From: Lentilactobacillus parabuchneri DSM 5707 = NBRC 107865
GTDB lineage: Bacteria; Bacillota; Bacilli; Lactobacillales; Lactobacillaceae
Length of the DNA: 41,462 nt
Reading direction: 5' to 3'
NCBI RefSeq assembly: GCF_001435315.1
Contig: NZ_AZGK01000015.1
Span: 1-41,462, forward strand
Below are positions 1,897 through 41,444 of this stretch, piece by piece. A program made the translations under genes and the position numbers. A model generated the notes under the pieces. It had not been told where the DNA came from and made no database searches. It worked only from the letters and a program-made list of their open reading frames with translations. Every line of letters begins with the position of its first letter. Positions within the stretch are counted from its first letter, which is position 1.

Positions 1897-3375
1897 CTAT
1901 TTGTTTAATTTAAATACCCATTCACGGTGATCACGGGCAAGTAACTCATCAGCAGATACTGGACCCATTGAGCCAGGAATGTAGTTAGGGAACATTGGTT
2001 GTTGAATATCCCATACACGGCGGATTTGATCAACAAACTTCCATGCGTTGGCAACTTCTGGCCAGCTGGCAAAGTTTGTCCCGTCGCCCTTTAAAACGTC
2101 GTGGATTAAACGTTCGTAAGGTTGTGGAGTTTCCTTGGTTCTCTTTGAATCTTCAAGGTATTGCAACTGAACGGGTTCAGTGTGGAATCCTTGTTCGCTG
2201 TTCTTAGCGTTGACCATCAGTGAGAAGCCTTGGTTAGGCTCAATGAAGATGGTCAAAACGTTGGCGTTCAGTGGGGTGCTGCCGCTTTGTGGGAAGGCGA
2301 AGATATCAACCAACGGCTTCTTAAAGACAACGTCAACACGGGTAAACTTATCAGCCAGCTTCTTACCAGTTCTGATGTAGAATGGTGTGCCTGACCAACG
2401 ATAGTTATCAAACATTAATTTACCGGCAACGAAGGTTTCAGTGTTTGAATCCTTTGGAACACCGTCTTCTTCACGGTATTCTTTGTCGTTACCAACGGCA
2501 GCGTATTGGCCGCGGACAAAGTTGCTTGATGCTTCAGCAACGTTGTAAACACGGAGACTACGTAATGCCTTAACTTTTTCAGCACGGATATCGGTATCCT
2601 TAAAGGCAACCGGTTGTTCCATTGCCAGCAAACTGACAATCTGCATAATGTGGTTTTGAACCATATCACGCAAAGCACCTGAGTTGTCGTAGTAACCGGC
2701 ACGTTCTTCAACGCCAAGCTTTTCAGCCAGGGTAACTTGAATATTGTCGATATAACGGTTGTTCCACAGGGCTTCGAAAATCGTGTTTCCAAAACGAATT
2801 GCTTCGATGTTTTGGATCATTTCCTTACCTAAGTAGTGGTCGATTCGGAAAATTTGGTTTTCTTCAAACGCAGCACTTAAGTCGTCGTTCAATTGTTTTG
2901 CGGATTCGAAATCACGTCCGAATGGCTTTTCAATGACAAGGCGGTTAAATCCATTGCCTTCTGAAAGAAGGTGCTGTGCTTTGAGGTTCTTGGCAACTGT
3001 TCCGAAGAAGTTGGGTGCCATTGAAATGTAGAATACACGATTCCCATTCAATTGGTACTTCTTGTCCAGTTCATTTGCTTTATCTTTTAGAACAGAATAG
3101 TGTTCAAGATCAGTTACATCATGAGTCACAAAGTAGAAATGGCTCACAAAATCAGCAATTTGCTTTTTATTGGTAGATTCCTTAGAAACGGATTTTGAAA
3201 CCATCTCACGGAACTTTTCATCATCAAACTTGTAACGGGAAGTCCCAATCACAGCAAAGTGATCACGGATGTTTCCCTTCTCGAAAAGCTTTAACATTGC
3301 AGGATAAAGTTTACGAGTGGCAAGGTCACCAGTTGCTCCAAAGAGCATAATCAAAGAACGTCTTTCAGTTGGCAA
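1897..3375 (-). CDS. zwf: Glucose-6-phosphate 1-dehydrogenase
   Basis: It oxidises glucose 6-phosphate to 6-phosphogluconolactone, the entry step of the oxidative phosphoketolase route. The nucleotide-binding motif LFGATGDLA is near the N-terminus, and the catalytic segment RIDHYLGKEM is present. The EKPFGRD stretch and C-terminal YIPGSMGP also fit the family. I chose the TTG start at 3375 because GGAGTG lies six bases upstream; this gives 492 residues and the standard N-terminus. An upstream ATG in frame at 3453 would add 26 residues with no ribosome site. It has its own promoter and terminator. Identification is secure; the exact start is inferred. Confidence 0.97.
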   Translation of the reverse strand: MPTERRSLIMLFGATGDLATRKLYPAMLKLFEKGNIRDHFAVIGTSRYKFDDEKFREMVSKSVSKESTNKKQIADFVSHFYFVTHDVTDLEHYSVLKDKANELDKKYQLNGNRVFYISMAPNFFGTVAKNLKAQHLLSEGNGFNRLVIEKPFGRDFESAKQLNDDLSAAFEENQIFRIDHYLGKEMIQNIEAIRFGNTIFEALWNNRYIDNIQVTLAEKLGVEERAGYYDNSGALRDMVQNHIMQIVSLLAMEQPVAFKDTDIRAEKVKALRSLRVYNVAEASSNFVRGQYAAVGNDKEYREEDGVPKDSNTETFVAGKLMFDNYRWSGTPFYIRTGKKLADKFTRVDVVFKKPLVDIFAFPQSGSTPLNANVLTIFIEPNQGFSLMVNAKNSEQGFHTEPVQLQYLEDSKRTKETPQPYERLIHDVLKGDGTNFASWPEVANAWKFVDQIRRVWDIQQPMFPNYIPGSMGPVSADELLARDHREWVFKLNK

Positions 3376-3439
3376 AATGTTCACTCCTATCAAAAAATTA
3401 ACTAAGTAATTTGGTATATGTCTATACCAGTTCTTCCAC

Positions 3440-3501
3440 ATTATATAACACATAAGAGTCTAACAAAAGCGAATTACAAATGTAAATGAATAAAATTTAC
3501 A
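3440..3501 (-). promoter_or_regulatory. zwf promoter with upstream inverted repeat
   Basis: On the minus strand a TATAAT -10 occupies 3445-3440, with a weak -35 (TTTGTT or TTGTTA, spacing 15-17) near 3467-3461. Immediately upstream is a perfect 7-base inverted repeat, TGTAAAT and ATTTACA with a 7-base spacer, at 3481-3501. That position would suit a regulator binding just upstream of the -35 box. The -10 is clear; the operator is inferred from symmetry and place only. Confidence 0.5.
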
Positions 3502-3653
3502 GGCATATCGTTTTCATAATTGGACAGCTAAATTGTATGACTATTCCGTGACACCTTTCTTAAGAAAAGCATAAATGAATGCCGTTTTGTCGGCTTTTAT
3601 AGCGATAATCATTTATAATAAGTCTTGCAAAATAAAGGTTAGGAGCAATATTA

Positions 3654-4391
3654 ATGAAGAAATTTAAGTTTATCGCGTTCTTCGCTGTCCTGGCATCATT
3701 TTTAATCGGGTTCAGTGTCAACGCATCCGCAAGTTCTCCGTCATTATCAGTCAATAATGTTTACACCACATCAAAGGCGGTTACCGGTACTGCTACCAAA
3801 GGTGTGTCAATTATCGTTCGGAACACCAACAAAACAACCATTGCCAGCACGAAAGCTGACAGTACGACCGGTAAATTCAGTGCCGAACTGCACACAAGCG
3901 TTAAAGCCAACCAAAAGCTTTACGTTTATGCCCGCAAATCAGCAACGTCATACTTTTATCGAATTATGACTGTGAAGACACCAAAGTCTGCCACAACTAC
4001 AACTACAACGACAACAACTTCAAGCAGTTCAAAATCTTCAAGTAGCAAGATTAAGATTTCTGAACCAACTGGTCGTTGGCAATCTGGTAACAACAACGGT
4101 TATAGCGTTGTGACCAACTTCAGCCAAAAGAGCGGCTTAAACCAAGGCCTCTACAAGAACGGTAAATTCCAAAAGAAATTAATCAATTGGGCAAGTTACA
4201 AGGTAACCACCTACAGCAAGACGTTCTGGGGAATCACTTACCGCGAACGCGGCGCTAAGACTTACCACAAGTTCTATTTGAGATTTACTGACAACACACA
4301 CTTCATCATTGTCAACAAAGCCAACCATGCAATCAAAGTGCAGTATGACAACACACCACTTCACTATTATAAGTTTGCTTTGGTAAAATAA
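3654..4391 (+). CDS. Secreted protein with Ig-like domain and Thr/Ser linker
   Basis: I do not recognise a specific family for this 245-residue protein. It has a typical signal peptide (KKFKF, hydrophobic core, cut likely after SVNASA). Residues of about 30-110 read like a small bacterial Ig-type domain (VTGTATKGVSIIVRN, STKADSTTGKFSAEL, LYVYARK). A run of nine Thr then a Ser/Lys-rich linker spans about 113-133, followed by a roughly 110-residue C-terminal domain rich in Tyr, Lys and Asn. There is no LPxTG or transmembrane anchor, so it is probably released or held by charge. The ATG follows TAGGAGC; a TATAAT at 3614-3619 may be its -10. A terminator follows at 4407-4450. Confidence 0.8.
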   Translation: MKKFKFIAFFAVLASFLIGFSVNASASSPSLSVNNVYTTSKAVTGTATKGVSIIVRNTNKTTIASTKADSTTGKFSAELHTSVKANQKLYVYARKSATSYFYRIMTVKTPKSATTTTTTTTTSSSSKSSSSKIKISEPTGRWQSGNNNGYSVVTNFSQKSGLNQGLYKNGKFQKKLINWASYKVTTYSKTFWGITYRERGAKTYHKFYLRFTDNTHFIIVNKANHAIKVQYDNTPLHYYKFALVK

Positions 4392-4406
4392 ATTTGATGA
4401 TTAGAC

Positions 4407-4450
4407 AGCCGGTGTAAAAGGTCGATTGACTTTTTACACCGGCTTTTTTT
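4407..4450 (+). terminator. Rho-independent terminator
   Basis: AGCCGGTGTAAAAGGTC pairs with the sequence ending TTTTTACACCGGC and is followed by a run of T. It ends the transcript of the secreted protein gene 16 bases past its stop codon. Confidence 0.92.
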
Positions 4451-4528
4451 GCCGTCAAAGCCCCCGCGAATCAGGGGCTAAATATGATATGATAAATTGA
4501 GATTGTTTGACGTTTGGGAGGCGTGATG

Positions 4529-5140
4529 ATGGATGAAACACAACGAATGTTGGCAGGAAAGCTGACGGATCCCAGAGACCCGGTACTTATGAAACGACAG
4601 CACCTGGCTCACCGGTTATCGAAGATGTATAGCGATACTTTTGATGATGAACATGAAAGGCGTGCCGAGATTCTTCGGCAGTTGTTGCCCGATGCTTCTG
4701 AGCATATCTATTTTCAAGGACCAATCTTTTTTGACTATGGGGATCATACGACCATTGGTGAGCACTTTTATGGCAATACCAACATTATGGTGCTGGATAC
4801 CGGCCGAGTTACGATTGGCGATAATGTCATGTTTGGGCCTAATGTGACGTTGGTGACACCGATGCACCCGCTCAAATATCAAGACCGCAATTTTGTCGCT
4901 GATAATTCGCTGCCGGGGAAAGAATATGCCAAGCCAATTACGATTGAAAGCAACTGCTGGCTTGCCAGCAACGTCACGGTGATTGGCGGGGTGACCATCG
5001 GAAATGGCAGCGTGATTGGTGCCGGCAGCGTTGTTACACGAGATATTCCGGCCAATTCGTTGGCAGTTGGCAATCCGTGCAAAGTGATTCGGCAAATAAC
5101 TGATCAAGACGATATCCGATTGAAAAAAGAATTGTTTTAG
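4529..5140 (+). CDS. Hexapeptide-repeat O-acetyltransferase (maltose/galactoside type)
   Basis: This is a left-handed beta-helix acetyltransferase of the LacA/Maa/NodL group, which moves acetyl from acetyl-CoA to a sugar or glycoside. The N-terminal maltose-acetyltransferase helix (RMLAGKLTDPRDP) is followed by hexapeptide turns (VTIGDNVMFGPNVTLVTPMHP, then TVIGGVTIGNGSVIGAGSVVTRDIP). His in LVTPMHP is the expected catalytic residue. I start it at the second of two adjacent ATGs because GGGAGG lies about seven bases upstream; starting at 4526 would add one Met. Length of 203 residues is usual. The substrate cannot be told from sequence. It may share a transcript with the MFS gene 92 bases downstream. 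Confidence 0.9.
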   Translation: MDETQRMLAGKLTDPRDPVLMKRQHLAHRLSKMYSDTFDDEHERRAEILRQLLPDASEHIYFQGPIFFDYGDHTTIGEHFYGNTNIMVLDTGRVTIGDNVMFGPNVTLVTPMHPLKYQDRNFVADNSLPGKEYAKPITIESNCWLASNVTVIGGVTIGNGSVIGAGSVVTRDIPANSLAVGNPCKVIRQITDQDDIRLKKELF

Positions 5141-5232
5141 ATTATCTTTGATAACAATGTTGTTTTGGCCGATAGTATGCGAAAATAGTGCTAGAGAAAT
5201 TTTGGATAACTCACTTAGAAGGGACTGATTAA

Positions 5233-6408
5233 TTGATTAAACAACGAAGCGAAATTCGATTTAACTCCGTCATTGTGTATTCCCTGGTCTTAAACGCCGG
5301 TGCGGCATTCATGTGGCCGCTTGTCACGGTGTATCTGCACAACTATTTACATAAAACGTTGACCCTCGCAGGGCTGACGCTGTTGGCAATGTCATGTTTC
5401 ATGATGTTGGGGAACTACCTTGGCGGCTATCTGTTTGATCACTGGTCTCCGTACAAGACAACGATTATCAGTGCGTTGATTTCAACTTCTGCGATCGTCA
5501 CGTTAATCTTTTTCCATGGATGGCCGATATTTTCAATTATGCTGCTGTTTGTGGGCTTCGGCGACGGTGCTTGTATGACGTTGCTGAATTCTTATGCGGC
5601 CAGCATTAAGACCCGTTCGACCAGATCGATATTTAACGTTTTGTACATTGGTCAAAACGTCGGGATTGTGATTGGGACACTGATGGTCGGTTTTTTACTC
5701 AAGCATGGTGTCACCTTGGTCTTTATTGCGACCTCGGTCTTTTATGCAGCACTGATGATCATTACGATAATCGAATTCAATGTCAAAGTTGATCGCAGGG
5801 CACCTAGCAAGCCAGTTACACCTGGCGCCCCAGTAGAAACAAATGTCGGTGGGATGATCCTCTCGATTTGTGGTGTCGTCCTTGCAGTTTACCTAGCATA
5901 CGCACTTTGGGAGAGCGTGATTCCCGTTCACATGACTAACCTTCATATCCCATTTGAAAACTATAGCCTGCTGTGGACTTTAAATGGCCTGATGATCGTG
6001 ATCGGCCAGCCATTTGTGAATCGAATTGGGACTCATTTCAAGTTGAGTACGCAAACCTATGTCGGTGTGTTCATCTTTGCCGCATCATTTATCTGGCTGA
6101 TTTTTGCCCGTGACTATTCAGCGTTTGTGATGGTCATGGTCGTCACGACCATTGGTGAGATGATCGGTTTCCCTGGAATTCCGGCTTGGATTGACAGCCT
6201 GTCAACACCGCAACAGCGGGGCAAGTTCCAAGGCCTCTACAACCTGTTTATGTCCTGTGGGCGAGCGGTAGGACCACTGATTGGTGGAATTGTGCTGGAT
6301 TATGCTTCATACCGGGAGCTGTTCTCACTTGCTGCTGGATTGATTATTATATTTGCGGTCATTCTTTGGGCGATGAATAAACGCCGAGTGCTGATGATGA
6401 CAAAATAA
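5233..6408 (+). CDS. MFS transporter, 12 TM, multidrug-type
   Basis: A 391-residue major facilitator protein with about 12 hydrophobic segments in two halves, joined by a loop near residues 185-205. A motif-A-like segment, GGYLFDHWSPYKT, lies between helices 2 and 3, as in drug/proton antiporters. The TTG start at 5233 follows AAGGG and puts the first helix about ten residues in; no nearby ATG would keep that helix. It may be cotranscribed with the acetyltransferase upstream. The substrate is unknown; a multidrug or sugar efflux role is possible. A shared bidirectional terminator follows. Confidence 0.88.
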   Translation: MIKQRSEIRFNSVIVYSLVLNAGAAFMWPLVTVYLHNYLHKTLTLAGLTLLAMSCFMMLGNYLGGYLFDHWSPYKTTIISALISTSAIVTLIFFHGWPIFSIMLLFVGFGDGACMTLLNSYAASIKTRSTRSIFNVLYIGQNVGIVIGTLMVGFLLKHGVTLVFIATSVFYAALMIITIIEFNVKVDRRAPSKPVTPGAPVETNVGGMILSICGVVLAVYLAYALWESVIPVHMTNLHIPFENYSLLWTLNGLMIVIGQPFVNRIGTHFKLSTQTYVGVFIFAASFIWLIFARDYSAFVMVMVVTTIGEMIGFPGIPAWIDSLSTPQQRGKFQGLYNLFMSCGRAVGPLIGGIVLDYASYRELFSLAAGLIIIFAVILWAMNKRRVLMMTK

Positions 6409-6425
6409 CATTTGTTAACTAAATA

Positions 6426-6465
6426 AGGGAGCTGAAACAAAACACGCGTTTTGTTTCAGCTCCCT
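6426..6465. terminator. Bidirectional terminator between MFS and nrdI-like genes
   Basis: A 17-base perfect inverted repeat (AGGGAGCTGAAACAAAA against TTTTGTTTCAGCTCCCT) around a CACGCG loop sits between two convergent genes, 17 bases from each stop codon. It probably serves both. Confidence 0.9.
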
Positions 6466-6481
6466 ATTTGTTTAATGCGAA

Positions 6482-6931
6482 TTAGCTTTCGGCTAATAAC
6501 TTGTAAATTCGTTCCACGTCTCGGCCTGTTCCCCGCAGTTCGTAGTCCGCTAGAAATGGGACGTTAAATTGGGAGGCGTAGCGTTTGGCAGTTAAACAAT
6601 ACTGTTCGTTAAAGTTTTTGTTACCGCTGCCGATGATGCCGTGGCAAAGCTCAGCGTTCTTGTCATAGGCAATGTATTCGCCCAAGGCGTTGGTCATCAG
6701 CTCCGTCACGCCATTATCAATTCCGTTGCCACCGTTCAAATAGGTAGGAACAAACGCAAAGTATGGGTCGCTTTCATCGGCGAAATCAGTCTGCTCACTG
6801 ATTTCTTTAGACTCAACCAGTGGGTTTGCGGGGTCTTGATCGTGCATGCCGGTTGCGTAGCTGGCAAGATTTTTAACAAATGAGCGGGTATTTCCCTCAA
6901 TGGAAATAAATAAGATTTTAATCGGACTCAA
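6482..6931 (-). CDS. nrdI: NrdI-like flavodoxin
   Basis: NrdI proteins are small flavodoxins that activate the dimanganese cofactor of class Ib ribonucleotide reductase. Here the FMN phosphate loop reads SIEGNTRSF, followed by VPTYLNGGNGIDNG, IIGSGNKNFNEQYCLTAK and the C-terminal YELRGTGRDVERI, all in family order. Length of 149 residues fits. The TTG start follows GGAGG by six bases. No nrdE, nrdF or nrdH is adjacent, so this is a stand-alone copy. It may serve a reductase encoded elsewhere, or be a diverged NrdI-type flavodoxin with another partner. The family call is firm and the exact role is inferred. Confidence 0.85.
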   Translation of the reverse strand: MSPIKILFISIEGNTRSFVKNLASYATGMHDQDPANPLVESKEISEQTDFADESDPYFAFVPTYLNGGNGIDNGVTELMTNALGEYIAYDKNAELCHGIIGSGNKNFNEQYCLTAKRYASQFNVPFLADYELRGTGRDVERIYKLLAES

Positions 6932-20720: not shown

Positions 20721-20759
20721 AACACTTTTTCAAAAGCTCCAAGATCGGTCAACTTTCTA

Positions 20760-20768
20760 TGCTATAAT
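20760..20768 (+). promoter_or_regulatory. Extended -10 promoter of the cobalamin riboswitch operon
   Basis: TGCTATAAT at 20760-20768 is a consensus extended -10 element. No good -35 lies 17 bases upstream. Transcription would start near 20775, a few bases before the P1 stem of the aptamer. Confidence 0.75.
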
Positions 20769-20783
20769 TTTCCATGTTAAGAA

Positions 20784-21066
20784 GCATAATAAAACGGAAA
20801 AAGGTGCAAATCCTTTACAGCCCCTTCGCTACTGTAAGATTGACGAAGCTGTCACAACTCACTGGGTCACCCTGGAAAGAGGACAGTTGTAGGACGAGAT
20901 CAAGTCAGGATACGTTTGTTATGCCGATTGCAAAGCTTCTTAGGGTCGGCTTTGTCAATTAATAGCGTATCTCTCGGATATTTTGTGTACCCAAAATAAG
21001 TGTCTGAATTTAGGTTATTAGTGATTGAGAAACGGCCCTGGCTAGCGAAACTAGCCGGGCTTTTTT
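20784..21066 (+). ncRNA. Cobalamin riboswitch with terminator expression platform
   Basis: The conserved B12 aptamer blocks occur in order: GGTGCAAATCC (20803-20813), CAGCCCCTTCGCTACTGTAA (20818-20837), TCACTGGG, CCTGGAAAGA, GGACGAGAT and AAGTCAGGATACG (20902-20914). A P1 stem closes it: GCATAATAAAACG (20784-20796) pairs with CGTTTGTTATGC (20913-20924). About 110 bases further on, GCCCTGGCTAG and CTAGCCGGGC form a hairpin followed by six T (21035-21066). That layout fits the usual OFF switch, where bound cobalamin favours termination before the coding region. The class is recognised with high confidence; direction of control is inferred from the terminator. Confidence 0.97.
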
Positions 21067-21128
21067 GTTGTGTTCATTTTTTGTTGAGGGCGTCATCACG
21101 ATTTAATTATTTGGAGGAGAGCATACGC

Positions 21129-23396
21129 ATGAAGAAAAAGCAGTTTGTTTATTGGATATCACTCATATTAGGGTTGACCTTATTATTTGCCGGAGGAAGT
21201 AACGTTGCCAGAGCAGATACTTCGGCCGACGTTGATTCAGCCATTGCATCCGGCGTCAAACTGACCGCGCAAAAAGAGACGTTAGATGCGTGGGATGCCG
21301 CCATTTTGGCCACCAGTGACAATGGCATTACCGATGCCCAGGCACAAAACGCCTATAACGACATTGTTACCACGAACTATTTTCTGAGCGGGGAGGATCA
21401 TGGCTATGCCGGCGTTTCAAACGTTGCGGGCGTCATTGGTCTTCGTGCTTTGGGAAAAGATCCGGCCAACATCAATAAAAAGGATTTGGTGGGGCAGGTT
21501 ATTAACGATCCACTGGCACAAAAGGAGAAGCCGGATTTATATACTTTGGTTAACGACCTGGAAGCTTTAAGTACTGGAAGTTACGGCAAAGCAAGTGAAA
21601 AAGCGCGGGCAAGTTTGACGACCAAACTCTTGGCTGCTCGGGACTCAGCATCAGGTATCTGGAAGTCTGCGTGGGGTGATGTTGATCCTACTGGACGAGC
21701 CCTACAGGCACTCTCAATGAATACGGATCAGCCAGGGGTTCCCGCGGCAATCTCAAAAGCGGTAGCCGAAGTTGAAAATCACTATTACCAACCAAACGGT
21801 GGCTTTGGCAATCAAGATAATAAGGAGGATCAGTATAACAACATTACGATGGTCGACGGACTGGCAGCCGCGGGCGTCGATGTTTATACGTCATTAAACA
21901 ATAAGGCGGATTACAAAGCCCCCGTTCAACGTTTATTGGATCAAAAAGACGTTGATGCGGACAGTAATTCGATGCTGCTTCAGCAAGCCACCTATACTTT
22001 GGAACAAGCCAAATTTACCAAAGATGGTGGTCAGGGGTGGATCTTTAATTTTGAACAGAACCCGACCTTCAGGCCACGAGAACTTGCTAAATTAAATCAG
22101 GCGGCCACGGCTCAAAAACAAGTAATTAACGGCGATACGGTAGGCTCCGCAACTGATAAGGCAACCGCGATCAGTCAGGTTAACCAGATTCTAGAAAGTT
22201 CAATCACAAAGATTAATGCTGATACCTCGGCTGAAGAAGCAATTGCCGACAGAGCGGTGGGGATTGCGGCAATCAACAATGTGAAAATTGTTGATTCAAA
22301 CGCCAATTCGACAAGTACAACACCGACCACGATCAACAATAATTACACGACGATTATTAGTAGTGGGGCAAATTCATCGAGTTCAGCCTCAAGCGCAAGT
22401 TCGCAAGTAGCGCCAACCCCTCAAAAGAAGCATCAAAGTATCAAGGGATCGGTTGTCTATGGGTTGACGAAGGTTAAGCTGTACAAAACGACTCACTTTA
22501 CCAAGTCCAATCTCATACGGACCTATCAGAAGCAACCTCGAACCAAGCGGCCGATGTTTCTCGTCATCAGCCAAACGATCAATCAAAACAGCCAGCCGAT
22601 TTATAAGCTGAAAAACCTCGGGAGTGGTAAGACCGGCTACGCATTAGCAGGGGCAACCCATTTCTCAAGGGCTTACTATTCTGCTAAAGTTATCCAGGTT
22701 AAAGTGATCAATCCTAAAGGAATCAATGAGTATGGAAAAGTCAAACTGACCGATAGGAAGCATCATGTAAAGAAAAATGCGCTTCTAGCAGTTAAACAAG
22801 TTGTTAAGTACGGGCGCACAACTCGTCTGCGGTTGGCCAATGGCTGTTACGTCTCCGCCAACAAAAAAATGGTATTTGCCACTCGGATTGCAAAAGCGGT
22901 TGTTCAAAACACTGATGCCACGGCAACACCGACTGTCCCCACTTCATCTGCAACCAGTTCATCTTCTACGACGACCCAAGAGCAAACGACGCCAACGACA
23001 TCCAATGGGACCGCCACACTGCCAAACAATGTGCCGACTAATCCGGCTGGAAATGCCAATGCCAATTCTGGTTCTAACACGGACTCCAGCACTGAGACGG
23101 TAACATTGACGATTAACGCCAATGGCTCAGTAATTGCAAGTGGCAGCGTCACGGTGGCCAAAGGTAAAACAGCGCTGGACGCGTTAAATGCCCTGGCTTC
23201 ACAACACAACTTATCGATTACAATCAGTGGATCCGGCAGTACAGCTTACGTTAAAGGGATTAATGGATATAATGCCGGGCCAGCGGGAACCATGACCGGC
23301 TGGTTATACGCAGTCAATGGCAACCAACCGAACGTGTCCATTGGTGCGTATACTGTCAAAAATGGTGATCAAATTTCGCTGACTTACAACAAATAA
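21129..23396 (+). CDS. Exported transcobalamin-like protein with wall-binding repeats and DUF4430
   Basis: A 755-residue exported protein, probably capturing cobalamin at the cell surface. A signal peptide ends near NVARA-DT (about 29). Residues 35-330 are helical with prenyltransferase-like repeat segments (DPTGRALQALSM, YNNITMVDGLAAAGVD, GGFGNQ). A charged helical stretch near 335-400 and a Ser/Thr linker follow. Two SH3-like or DUF5776/SLAP-like units at about 435-600 have the Tyr/Lys-rich look of wall-binding repeats. After another Ser/Thr/Asn linker, the last 95 residues match the DUF4430 transcobalamin-C pattern (GKTALDALNAL, GWLYAVNG, YTVKNGDQISLTYNK). The ATG follows GGAGGAGA and lies 62 bases past the riboswitch terminator. 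There is no LPxTG motif. Confidence 0.9.
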   Translation: MKKKQFVYWISLILGLTLLFAGGSNVARADTSADVDSAIASGVKLTAQKETLDAWDAAILATSDNGITDAQAQNAYNDIVTTNYFLSGEDHGYAGVSNVAGVIGLRALGKDPANINKKDLVGQVINDPLAQKEKPDLYTLVNDLEALSTGSYGKASEKARASLTTKLLAARDSASGIWKSAWGDVDPTGRALQALSMNTDQPGVPAAISKAVAEVENHYYQPNGGFGNQDNKEDQYNNITMVDGLAAAGVDVYTSLNNKADYKAPVQRLLDQKDVDADSNSMLLQQATYTLEQAKFTKDGGQGWIFNFEQNPTFRPRELAKLNQAATAQKQVINGDTVGSATDKATAISQVNQILESSITKINADTSAEEAIADRAVGIAAINNVKIVDSNANSTSTTPTTINNNYTTIISSGANSSSSASSASSQVAPTPQKKHQSIKGSVVYGLTKVKLYKTTHFTKSNLIRTYQKQPRTKRPMFLVISQTINQNSQPIYKLKNLGSGKTGYALAGATHFSRAYYSAKVIQVKVINPKGINEYGKVKLTDRKHHVKKNALLAVKQVVKYGRTTRLRLANGCYVSANKKMVFATRIAKAVVQNTDATATPTVPTSSATSSSSTTTQEQTTPTTSNGTATLPNNVPTNPAGNANANSGSNTDSSTETVTLTINANGSVIASGSVTVAKGKTALDALNALASQHNLSITISGSGSTAYVKGINGYNAGPAGTMTGWLYAVNGNQPNVSIGAYTVKNGDQISLTYNK

Positions 23397-23423
23397 TGAC
23401 GTATTTTGAGGAGGTTCTTTCAT

Positions 23424-24470
23424 ATGAATCAACTGATTAAAAAAATCCTGGTGGCATCAACCGCTGCGTTGATGGCCGTTACTTTTGCGACAACGACTAA
23501 CGCAGCATCTGTGCACACGGCTACAGCCACGACGATCCACACCCAGACAAAACGGACCTATAACTATGCCAAAAAGATGTTGATCAAAAATCGAACCGGC
23601 TTGTCCGGTAAGACCAGTGCCATTTTTAGCAAGAAAGCTTATCCGGATACTGGTGCATCTTCTGGTTACTCCGATTTTTTACTTGGTCTCAAAGGAAACC
23701 ATTATCGTTTCACCACCAAGCAAAGAACTTTATTACGTAAGAACTTGGTGATTAAGCGAAATACGCCGGCCGCTTCGTTAGCCAATGCCGTAATGGCGGT
23801 GTCGGCGATGGGGATGAACGCGAAAAAATACAAGCCATATCACCAAAAACACGGAATCAATCTGGTGGCCAGGCTGTATCGCGCACGCATTTCCAACCAA
23901 ACAGCCAGCTCACAAGCTCAGGTGCTGATTGCCGTTTCGATGAGCAGTAAATTTAAACGGCCAAGCAACGCCAAATTTAGCAAGACCAGTCTGAGCTCGC
24001 GGTTGGTGAATGCGCAATTGACAAATTCGGGGTGGACGTACAATAACGCTCAGGGAACCAAGGACGCCGACACGACCAGCATGGTCTTAACAGCCCTTTC
24101 TCGGAGTGGTTCCAGTAGCAACCATGTTCGCTCAAGTATTCAAAGCGGCCAAAAATTCCTATTCAGTATTTCCCAACCCAACGGCGCTTTTGGCTACACA
24201 TTCAATGGCAAAACGACGGCTAACGCGAATTCGACAGCCGAAGCGATCATCGCCTTAGCAAACGATTCAACGACTCAAAAATACGTGAACACGACACCCA
24301 TCAAGGCGAACCAAACAGCGACGCCACTGCTCGCAATGCTGACGTACGTTAATCGATCCGGCTCAATCAAGCACGCCACCAGCCAACTGTATGGTGTCGG
24401 CCAGGTTAATTTGGCGATAGCGGCATATAAGGCTGCAGTGAAGCACCAATCTGTTTACGGGATAAATTAA
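23424..24470 (+). CDS. Exported alpha/alpha-barrel-like repeat protein, partner of the DUF4430 protein
   Basis: A 348-residue secreted protein with a signal peptide cut near TTNAAS (about 30). The rest is alpha-helical and holds prenyltransferase/squalene-cyclase-like repeats: LVNAQLTNSGWTYN then DADTTSMVLTALSRSG, and GQKFLFSISQPNGAFGYTF then ANSTAEAIIALAND. This is the pattern of the alpha6/alpha6 barrel that forms the N-terminal half of transcobalamin and intrinsic factor. There is no DUF4430, wall-binding repeat or LPxTG. It starts 27 bases after the upstream gene, with GAGGAGG before the ATG, so both are under the riboswitch. I infer a cobalamin-binding role; it could also be a structural partner of its neighbour. 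Confidence 0.82.
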   Translation: MNQLIKKILVASTAALMAVTFATTTNAASVHTATATTIHTQTKRTYNYAKKMLIKNRTGLSGKTSAIFSKKAYPDTGASSGYSDFLLGLKGNHYRFTTKQRTLLRKNLVIKRNTPAASLANAVMAVSAMGMNAKKYKPYHQKHGINLVARLYRARISNQTASSQAQVLIAVSMSSKFKRPSNAKFSKTSLSSRLVNAQLTNSGWTYNNAQGTKDADTTSMVLTALSRSGSSSNHVRSSIQSGQKFLFSISQPNGAFGYTFNGKTTANANSTAEAIIALANDSTTQKYVNTTPIKANQTATPLLAMLTYVNRSGSIKHATSQLYGVGQVNLAIAAYKAAVKHQSVYGIN

Positions 24471-24572
24471 ACAGTGTGACCGAATAGCAATTAGCTTCCA
24501 GAATATAATTGCTTAAACAACCGAAAGATGGGACTGGACGCACAATTTAACAAGATAATATTTGCATAAAAA

Positions 24573-24612
24573 AGGTCAGAGCAAAACATCTAGTTTTGTC
24601 CTGGCCTATTGT
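24573..24612. terminator. Terminator after the riboswitch operon
   Basis: AGGTCAGAGCAAAAC pairs with GTTTTGTCCTGGCCT around ATCTA, with A and T runs on either side. It separates the two cobalamin-regulated genes from the membrane-protein gene at 24694. Confidence 0.85.
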
Positions 24613-24693
24613 TTGTTTAAATGTTCACAGACCTCTACAATTATTCTAATGAAAGGTATACTAATACTTAAATACCAAAAGAAGGTAACTCAA

Positions 24694-41247: not shown

Positions 41248-41444
41248 ATGCGATGAGTCGAGAAATCACACAGCATTTATGCTGTCGCGCAAGCGATTTA
41301 TGTGAATTCGAGCGGGACACATTTTAAGGCACAGATTTGCTGGTGTTTGACTTTAGCGGATTGTGGAATCCAAGAAGTCCATCTACTTATGGTAGGTGCC
41401 GTAATAAAGAGGCCAACTGAAGAAATTCAGTTGGCCTCTTTTTC
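41248..41444 (+). ncRNA. Candidate structured RNA of about 197 nt with terminator
   Basis: No open frame covers this stretch, but it folds well by eye. The first half is closed by TCGAGAAATCACA and TGTGAATTCGA, and holds hairpins CAGCA-TTTA-TGCTG and TCGC-GCAA-GCGA, the latter with a GNRA tetraloop. The second half is closed by GGCAC (41329-41333) and GTGCC (41396-41400), and holds GGATT-GTGG-AATCC and CTAC-TTATG-GTAG. A strong terminator follows (AGAGGCCAACTGAA, GAAA, its complement, T run; 41408-41444). A promoter precedes it. It could be a free small RNA or a leader of a gene beyond the window. I cannot assign a known class. Confidence 0.6.

Follow-up and report, generated by a model that had tools for sequence, protein, structure and literature searches.

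Transcobalamin-like proteins secreted by Gram-positive bacteria were proposed by Burroughs et al. in 2007 to scavenge vitamin B12 (cobalamin); these proteins carry an SLBB domain, often fused to a toroid, their genes usually though not strictly share a predicted operon with genes for CbiO and CbiQ, their hosts usually lack key enzymes of B12 synthesis, and animals were proposed to have taken their own transcobalamin-like proteins from such bacteria (PMC1796856). We equate this SLBB domain with DUF4430, as the C-terminal domain of transcobalamin belongs to both. At the membrane, the energy-coupling factor (ECF) transporter ECF-CbrT of Lactobacillus delbrueckii, deposited as 6FNP, was shown by experiment to take up cobalamin and cobinamide (PMC5997447), and in Bacteroides the surface lipoprotein BtuG, which interacts with BtuB in the Gram-negative cell, captures B12 for an importer (PMC6143338). 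Here we describe a locus of Lentilactobacillus parabuchneri DSM 5707 = NBRC 107865 (contig NZ_AZGK01000015.1, positions 1 to 41,462; this whole stretch of 41,462 nucleotides is called the window), in which a cobalamin riboswitch precedes genes for two exported proteins, P1 and P2. Very probably the region serves a B12-scavenging host as a capture module that is repressed by B12 and feeds a CbrT-type ECF importer.

The general idea is already in print (PMC1796856) and the present case is of the same kind, since it shares with the described group the domains, secretion, a second paralogous surface protein, the ECF genes and the proposed role of scavenging the vitamin. A secreted protein with DUF4430 and a toroid was found, as was a host without CbiC (one marker), while a shared operon with CbiO/CbiQ genes was not found in the window: the ECF genes lie on another host contig (C34), and in L. 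kefiri on one contig with the surface genes. Unlike the group as presented in the consulted parts of that paper, the surface pair is preceded by a cobalamin riboswitch of its own and is encoded away from the transporter genes; the word "riboswitch" occurs nowhere in the text of that paper. Like BtuG, the pair would capture B12 at the cell surface for an importer, and the consulted part of PMC6143338 does not describe BtuG as a toroid/DUF4430 pair. The present analysis adds the riboswitch with its attenuator, identifies the S component as CbrT-type, names a client enzyme and shows a surface pair whose regulation is separate from that of its likely importer. We found no open-access paper joining DUF4430 with cobalamin riboswitches; the link may stand in the supplements of PMC3766115, which counts 26 orthologs of B12-transport genes controlled by cobalamin riboswitches.

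Riboswitch, attenuator and two exported proteins

The aptamer is the single RF00174 match (E<=0.001) in the 2.57 Mb host genome, covering the full length of the model with a score above the gathering cut-off (Table 1). An earlier note on this DNA, made from the sequence alone, had called a clear cobalamin aptamer with a downstream terminator; both are present, the aptamer starting at 20740, 20 bases before the 20760 quoted there. The leader thus holds an expression platform, in which the terminator and a competing antiterminator overlap at 21037-21039. Nine homologous leaders show strong conservation of the aptamer core, and antiterminator pairing is kept in 97.4% of alignment cells versus 18.6-50.2% in controls slid by 1-3 columns; helix 1 is paired in all nine leaders, two pairs have both sides changed and the covariation score was equalled by none of 500 column shuffles. 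The terminator stem is paired in eight of the nine leaders, the remaining one (G278a) having an alignment gap over the 3' half, and pairing holds in 100% of 72 counted cells versus 8.1-55.6% in slid controls (1-3 columns); one pair has both sides changed, and its covariation score, equalled by 58 of 500 shuffles, does not rise above them. Directly 3' of the aptamer, CUUCUU (20936-20941) is complementary to the ribosome-binding site of P1 (21114-21119), with all six pairs intact in eight leaders and five of six in the ninth, and this pairing might provide a second, translational layer of control. Cobalamin riboswitches have been described as OFF switches (PMC11477304), and the natural reading of the P1-P2 leader would likewise be an OFF switch, acting by transcription attenuation.

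Table 1. Features of the riboswitch-P1-P2 locus, in window coordinates
Feature	Position	Strand	Evidence
Cobalamin riboswitch aptamer (RF00174)	20740..20935	+	68.7 bits (gathering score 31.5), E 4.8e-15, model 1-189 of 189
Antiterminator hairpin	20942..21039	+	main arms 20942-20969 / 21011-21039; minimum-energy fold of 20936-21128
Intrinsic terminator	21037..21066	+	stem 21037-21059, then CTTTTTT; terminator scan
P1, exported 755-aa protein	21129..23396	+	alpha/alpha toroid + DUF1542 + DUF5776 + DUF4430
P1 signal peptide, residues 1-29	21129..21215	+	by eye, cleavage placed at VARA-DT
P1 alpha/alpha toroid, residues 30-312	21216..22064	+	AlphaFold2 model, Foldseek
P1 DUF1542 helical segment, residues 320-387	22086..22289	+	Pfam, borderline: 25.3 bits (cut-off 24.3)
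P1 DUF5776, residues 516-582	22674..22874	+	Pfam, 61.4 bits (cut-off 27)
P1 DUF4430, residues 679-754	23163..23390	+	Pfam, 55.8 bits (cut-off 23.8), E 6.4e-15
P2, exported 348-aa alpha/alpha toroid protein	23424..24470	+	27 bases 3' of P1
Hairpin 3' of P2, possible transcription end	24573..24607	+	fold z-score -2.5 for 24480-24640

The riboswitch is followed, as had been noted, by two exported proteins, whose signal peptides were read by eye from sequence, and no transporter or B12-synthesis gene stands immediately 3' of it in the open reading frame lists of the window (inspected by eye). The earlier descriptions of the first protein as ending in DUF4430 and of the second as helical repeats alone proved right: the C-terminal domain of P1 is, by its Pfam match, a beta-grasp domain like that of transcobalamin, and P2 is a toroid protein with no Pfam domain above cut-off. 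Modelling gave alpha/alpha toroids for the P1 helical region and for the greater part of P2; in the AlphaFold2 model of P1 the predicted local distance difference test (pLDDT) of the toroid is mostly 75-95 in ten-residue blocks, with dips at 61-70, 271-280 and 301-310. Foldseek against the PDB ranked transcobalamin (7qbe_C) first for P1, and eight of the top ten rows were transcobalamin, with weak E-values; for P2 transcobalamin came at rank 14 (E 1.1e-4). Furthermore, the profile of the DUF4430 family (A5) had haptocorrin (4kki, E 0.0091) as its top PDB match. Searches of the PDB with the single P1 and P2 sequences gave no match up to E 1, no eukaryotic cobalamin-binding Pfam match was obtained for the toroids at E<=1, a level at which the HMMER filters drop most weak matches, and matches of SCO2321_fam (NCBIfam) to P2 and its relatives lay far under the curated cut-off. 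DUF5776 may serve as the cell-wall attachment of P1. Mature P2 is very basic (pI 10.6, net charge +35) and the P1 toroid acidic (pI 4.5); as a guess, P2 might pair with the P1 toroid or adhere to the wall.

The hairpin 3' of P2 was not called by the terminator scan. Elsewhere in the window, the Ref68 / Lacto-3 small RNA (RF02840) was identified at 41249-41371 (+), with 76.9 bits versus a cut-off of 44.

Linked ECF genes and the probable B12 need of the host

An ECF-type importer encoded elsewhere had been suspected, and host contig C34 (locus L066) indeed carries a gene row for an ECF T component, a fused ATPase, an S component, a P2 paralogue 53% identical to P2, and a DUF4430 protein of 231 aa with a hydrophobic stretch at its N-terminus. 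The T component had no Pfam match and was assigned through its similarity to the Latilactobacillus T component. A profile built from 12 such S components gave 6fnp_A as the best PDB match (E 7.3e-18; the next row had 0.2). This chain of 182 aa, titled only "Membrane protein", was taken as CbrT since PMC5997447 deposits ECF-CbrT under 6FNP. The comparison strongly supports a CbrT-type S component in the host, that is, a predicted cobalamin importer, which stands with its T component and ATPases at the linked locus outside the window. Unlike ECF-CbrT of L. delbrueckii, the system described here has dedicated T and fused ATPase genes and additional toroid proteins; an external binding protein for CbrT is not discussed in the consulted part of PMC5997447.

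Within 9.5 kb of one L. kefiri contig (L080, the same contig as L058) we found the riboswitch, homologues of P1, P2 and the DUF4430 protein, and divergent ECF T, A and S genes. In two Latilactobacillus genomes (G143 and G166, records of L. graminis and L. fuchuensis) the riboswitch has pdu genes (named by eye) around it, and two to three genes further on one strand encodes a two-toroid protein, then a DUF4430 protein and the ECF components T, A and S; the single two-toroid protein tested (L056) scored above the LPXTG anchor cut-off. In Secundilactobacillus, five of six loci have the DUF4430, toroid and ECF genes lined up one after another, with the S component detected in four of these five, once as two pieces, and only a toroid gene was found in the sixth (L082). 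Toroid and DUF4430 are found fused in one protein (P1 and the L103 protein described below) but also on distinct, neighbouring proteins (L066, Secundilactobacillus), an arrangement suggestive of action in trans.

The host genome encodes an adenosylcobalamin-dependent ribonucleoside-triphosphate reductase (TIGR02505, 856 bits, cut-off 340), a class II ribonucleotide reductase (RNR) that was first met as a sub-threshold PF02867 match and then confirmed with TIGR02505, and a gene for a PduO-type adenosyltransferase follows it. CbiC (PF02570), the one synthesis marker used, is absent from the host genome; it is likewise absent from six of the seven genus genomes with an above-cut-off riboswitch, the exception being G180. 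The presence of the class II RNR and the adenosyltransferase together with the absence of CbiC indicates that the host probably scavenges B12, and on these marker genes it is likely a B12 auxotroph needing the vitamin for its class II RNR. The search for B12-related enzymes was confined to RNR, PF02286, PF02310, PF08331 and PF02570. Diol dehydratase was rejected as a client, PF02286 being absent from the host genome; the B12-binding domain PF02310 was found in none of the 24 genus genomes, host included, and QueG (PF08331) in eight of the 24, not in the host. A thiamine pyrophosphate (TPP) riboswitch (L097, 2809-2907, minus strand) lies about 1.2 kb upstream of the host RNR gene, on the opposite strand.

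Recurrence of the gene set in Lactobacillaceae and across the phylum

Whether DUF4430 genes recur behind cobalamin riboswitches, a survey called for in the earlier note, was examined in 301 genomes of Lactobacillaceae and 219 genomes of the phylum, and recurrence was seen in both. Among the Lactobacillaceae, RF00174 matched in 18 genomes (14 above cut-off) at 24 places, 18 of them above cut-off, and a DUF4430 gene follows downstream within 6 kb on the same strand at 11 of these 18. A P1 homologue follows all nine above-cut-off places of the genus Lentilactobacillus, which speaks for more than a chance pairing; at the tenth place of the genus (G249, 26.2 bits, under the cut-off) the gene that follows encodes an iron-dependent alcohol dehydrogenase. 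Moreover, all nine DUF4430 frames of at least 700 aa are located behind a riboswitch. Of the seven above-cut-off places without a following DUF4430 gene, one precedes a CbiA-type gene (L002, by Pfam), another looks similar by eye (L004), and genes near the others look pdu/cob-type, by eye only. DUF4430 was present in 83 genomes and the S profile (1e-20) matched in 51; DUF4430 occurs in all 51 S-component genomes versus 32 of the 250 others, and for 53 of the 57 S matches it is encoded no more than 6 kb away. Most S/DUF4430 loci of the family have no riboswitch, RF00174 matching in 12 of the 51 S genomes with the sub-cut-off G249 included. These counts are built on 130 DUF4430, 57 S (some being fragments of one broken gene), 24 riboswitch and 28 PduC rows, and as the sampled genomes are related, the association statistics (Fisher) are not independent evidence.

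Two side observations concern the same family. Of 26 DUF4430 frames with 360-425 aa, 13 have PduC no more than 8 kb away. For Lactobacillus, AraC-type regulators whose sensor domain resembles transcobalamin have been described (PMC1796856); these frames may be those regulators, which would make them B12-sensing transcription factors. In addition, the P1-P2-DUF4430 locus of Lactobacillus kefiranofaciens (L081) is 99.5% identical at the DNA level over 4.5 kb to contig C30 of G278 and 97.8% identical over 4.3 kb to the L. kefiri locus (L080), which could reflect either a recent exchange of DNA between kefir bacteria or contamination of the assembly.

In the phylum, DUF4430 was detected in 65 of the 219 genomes and a cobalamin riboswitch in 205. 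Among 150 riboswitches listed (more exist), set against 142 DUF4430 rows, a DUF4430 gene lies downstream within 6 kb on the same strand for 21, from 17 genomes and with two tandem pairs counted singly, upstream for two and on the opposite strand for none. Fourteen stretches were chosen for having DUF4430 behind a listed riboswitch, and hence illustrate locus content and do not measure frequency. By custom profiles (E<=0.01), ten of them (L098-L101, L103-L106, L108, L109) hold the toroid, DUF4430, T, fused ATPase and CbrT-like S all together; no S match was found in L110, no toroid match in L116, and DUF4430 only in L102 and L107 (a 6 kb piece). Rfam confirmed the riboswitch in 11 of the 14, those of L105, L109 and L116 resting on the phylum scan only. 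Three further loci (L113, L114, L115) were taken for the three highest DUF4430 scores in the phylum regardless of neighbours, and a cobalamin riboswitch was found upstream on the same strand in all three; L113 and L115 hold the whole gene set, and S and ATPase were seen in L114. Thus gene sets of riboswitch, toroid/DUF4430 and ECF components are recurrent in the phylum.

Single loci show further arrangements. By custom profiles, residues 6-314 of a 523-aa protein of L103 are toroid and residues 339-419 DUF4430, in the animal order and with about 25 residues between them, its DUF4430 scoring under the Pfam cut-off (17.1 of 23.8). In L113 (2741-7540) we observed a protein of 1599 aa that combines S-layer homology domains with DUF4430 and toroid regions, two of each. 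A short DUF4430 protein adjoins a CbrT-like S component in L111 and L112, where no riboswitch was seen. In L111, which comes from a related lactobacillus, the row (2854-6604) consists of an nrdJ-like frame, a DUF4430 protein of 132 aa, the CbrT-like S and a PduO-like frame (nrdJ and PduO by eye), which matches the order nrdJ-cbrS-cbrT-pduO of L. delbrueckii (PMC5997447) and suggests that CbrS of that species is a small DUF4430 protein.

Proposed capture route and competing explanations

In the proposed route, low intracellular cobalamin would allow the antiterminator to form and P1 and P2 to be transcribed, and cobalamin bound to the aptamer would favour the terminator and switch both genes off. 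Once exported, the toroids and the DUF4430 domain of P1 would act like the two halves of transcobalamin or intrinsic factor, with the corrinoid held between toroid and beta-grasp domain, either inside P1, by P1 with P2, or with a separate DUF4430 protein. P1 would probably be located at the wall via DUF5776. The vitamin would then pass to the membrane-anchored DUF4430 protein and the P2 paralogue of the ECF locus, which would deliver it to the CbrT-type S component for import by the ECF transporter, and inside the cell the adenosyltransferase would make adenosylcobalamin for the class II RNR. More tentatively, with the chances somewhat against it, toroid and DUF4430 could be exchangeable subunits of a "bacterial transcobalamin" relay that runs from wall to CbrT under riboswitch control in many members of the phylum, its modules fused or split over two to three proteins and the corrinoid gripped between polypeptides and handed on.

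Several results weigh against the capture reading and concern the likeness to animal transcobalamin, intrinsic factor and haptocorrin. P1 shares with these proteins export, the order of toroid and then DUF4430 beta-grasp domain, and fold matches, so that the transcobalamin-like architecture claimed earlier holds for the toroid fold and for DUF4430. It fails for the junction: in the animal family the two domains are directly joined, unlike P1, in which about 366 residues with DUF1542 and DUF5776 separate them, and a grip within one chain would require linkers folding back. P2, moreover, is a toroid alone, the C-terminal DUF4430 being present in P1 only, and the toroid is not recognisable as a relative by sequence: profiles of the toroid domains against the PDB gave terpene cyclases and no transcobalamin row up to E 10 (calmodulin rows obtained with toroid profile A1 look like chance). 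Terpene cyclases share the toroid and outscore transcobalamin by structural Z as well as by sequence profile. The proposed structure check came out in favour, in that the predicted folds include the toroid of transcobalamin and intrinsic factor, though terpene cyclases match equally or better by some measures. One could accordingly regard the toroids as class II terpene-cyclase-like enzymes, or as glycan-binding adhesins, with a purely regulatory link to B12; terpene cyclases are the top VIA and profile matches, and P1 has a D-x-D-x-T stretch at the place of the cyclase Asp-rich motif. We consider this highly improbable, as P1 and P2 are both exported, the final Asp of the motif is replaced in the alignment rows of P1, and the toroids are accompanied by DUF4430 and CbrT-type ECF genes in several families. 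Just as improbable is an inherited or degenerate riboswitch that has lost control over P1 and P2: the Rfam alignment marks non-standard pairs at several closing-stem positions of the aptamer, whereas aptamer core, antiterminator and terminator are all conserved over the nine leaders.

Two other explanations keep a corrinoid as the ligand and differ in its breadth or its path. P1 and P2 might be secreted B12 stores or shuttles, P2 diffusing off and coming back loaded like intrinsic factor, in line with its lack of an anchor domain above cut-off; the strongly basic charge of P2 favours retention at the wall and a P2 paralogue is encoded inside the ECF gene row, and we regard this as unlikely. 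A capture of corrinoids generally (cobinamide, pseudo-B12 and other cobamides) rather than of cobalamin itself, by an otherwise unchanged mechanism, is a variant of B12 capture and not exclusive of it, and stands as a possible, if rather doubtful, extension. Fermented-food habitats may hold several cobamides, which counts for this breadth. The cobinamide uptake of ECF-CbrT (PMC5997447) points the same way, while on the other side the present data do not separate the ligands, and the host has no CbiC, the one synthesis marker covered by the search.

For the lactobacilli, the membrane step of B12 uptake (ECF-CbrT) has been characterised and the capture of the vitamin outside the membrane has not, in the literature examined. 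A riboswitch-controlled surface pair with a likely importer and a client enzyme makes the prediction of 2007 directly testable. It also gives access to relatives of intrinsic factor in bacteria, and it would bear on the competition for B12 in fermented foods and in the gut. If the relay described above were true, bacteria would still be running the machinery that was the source of animal intrinsic factor.

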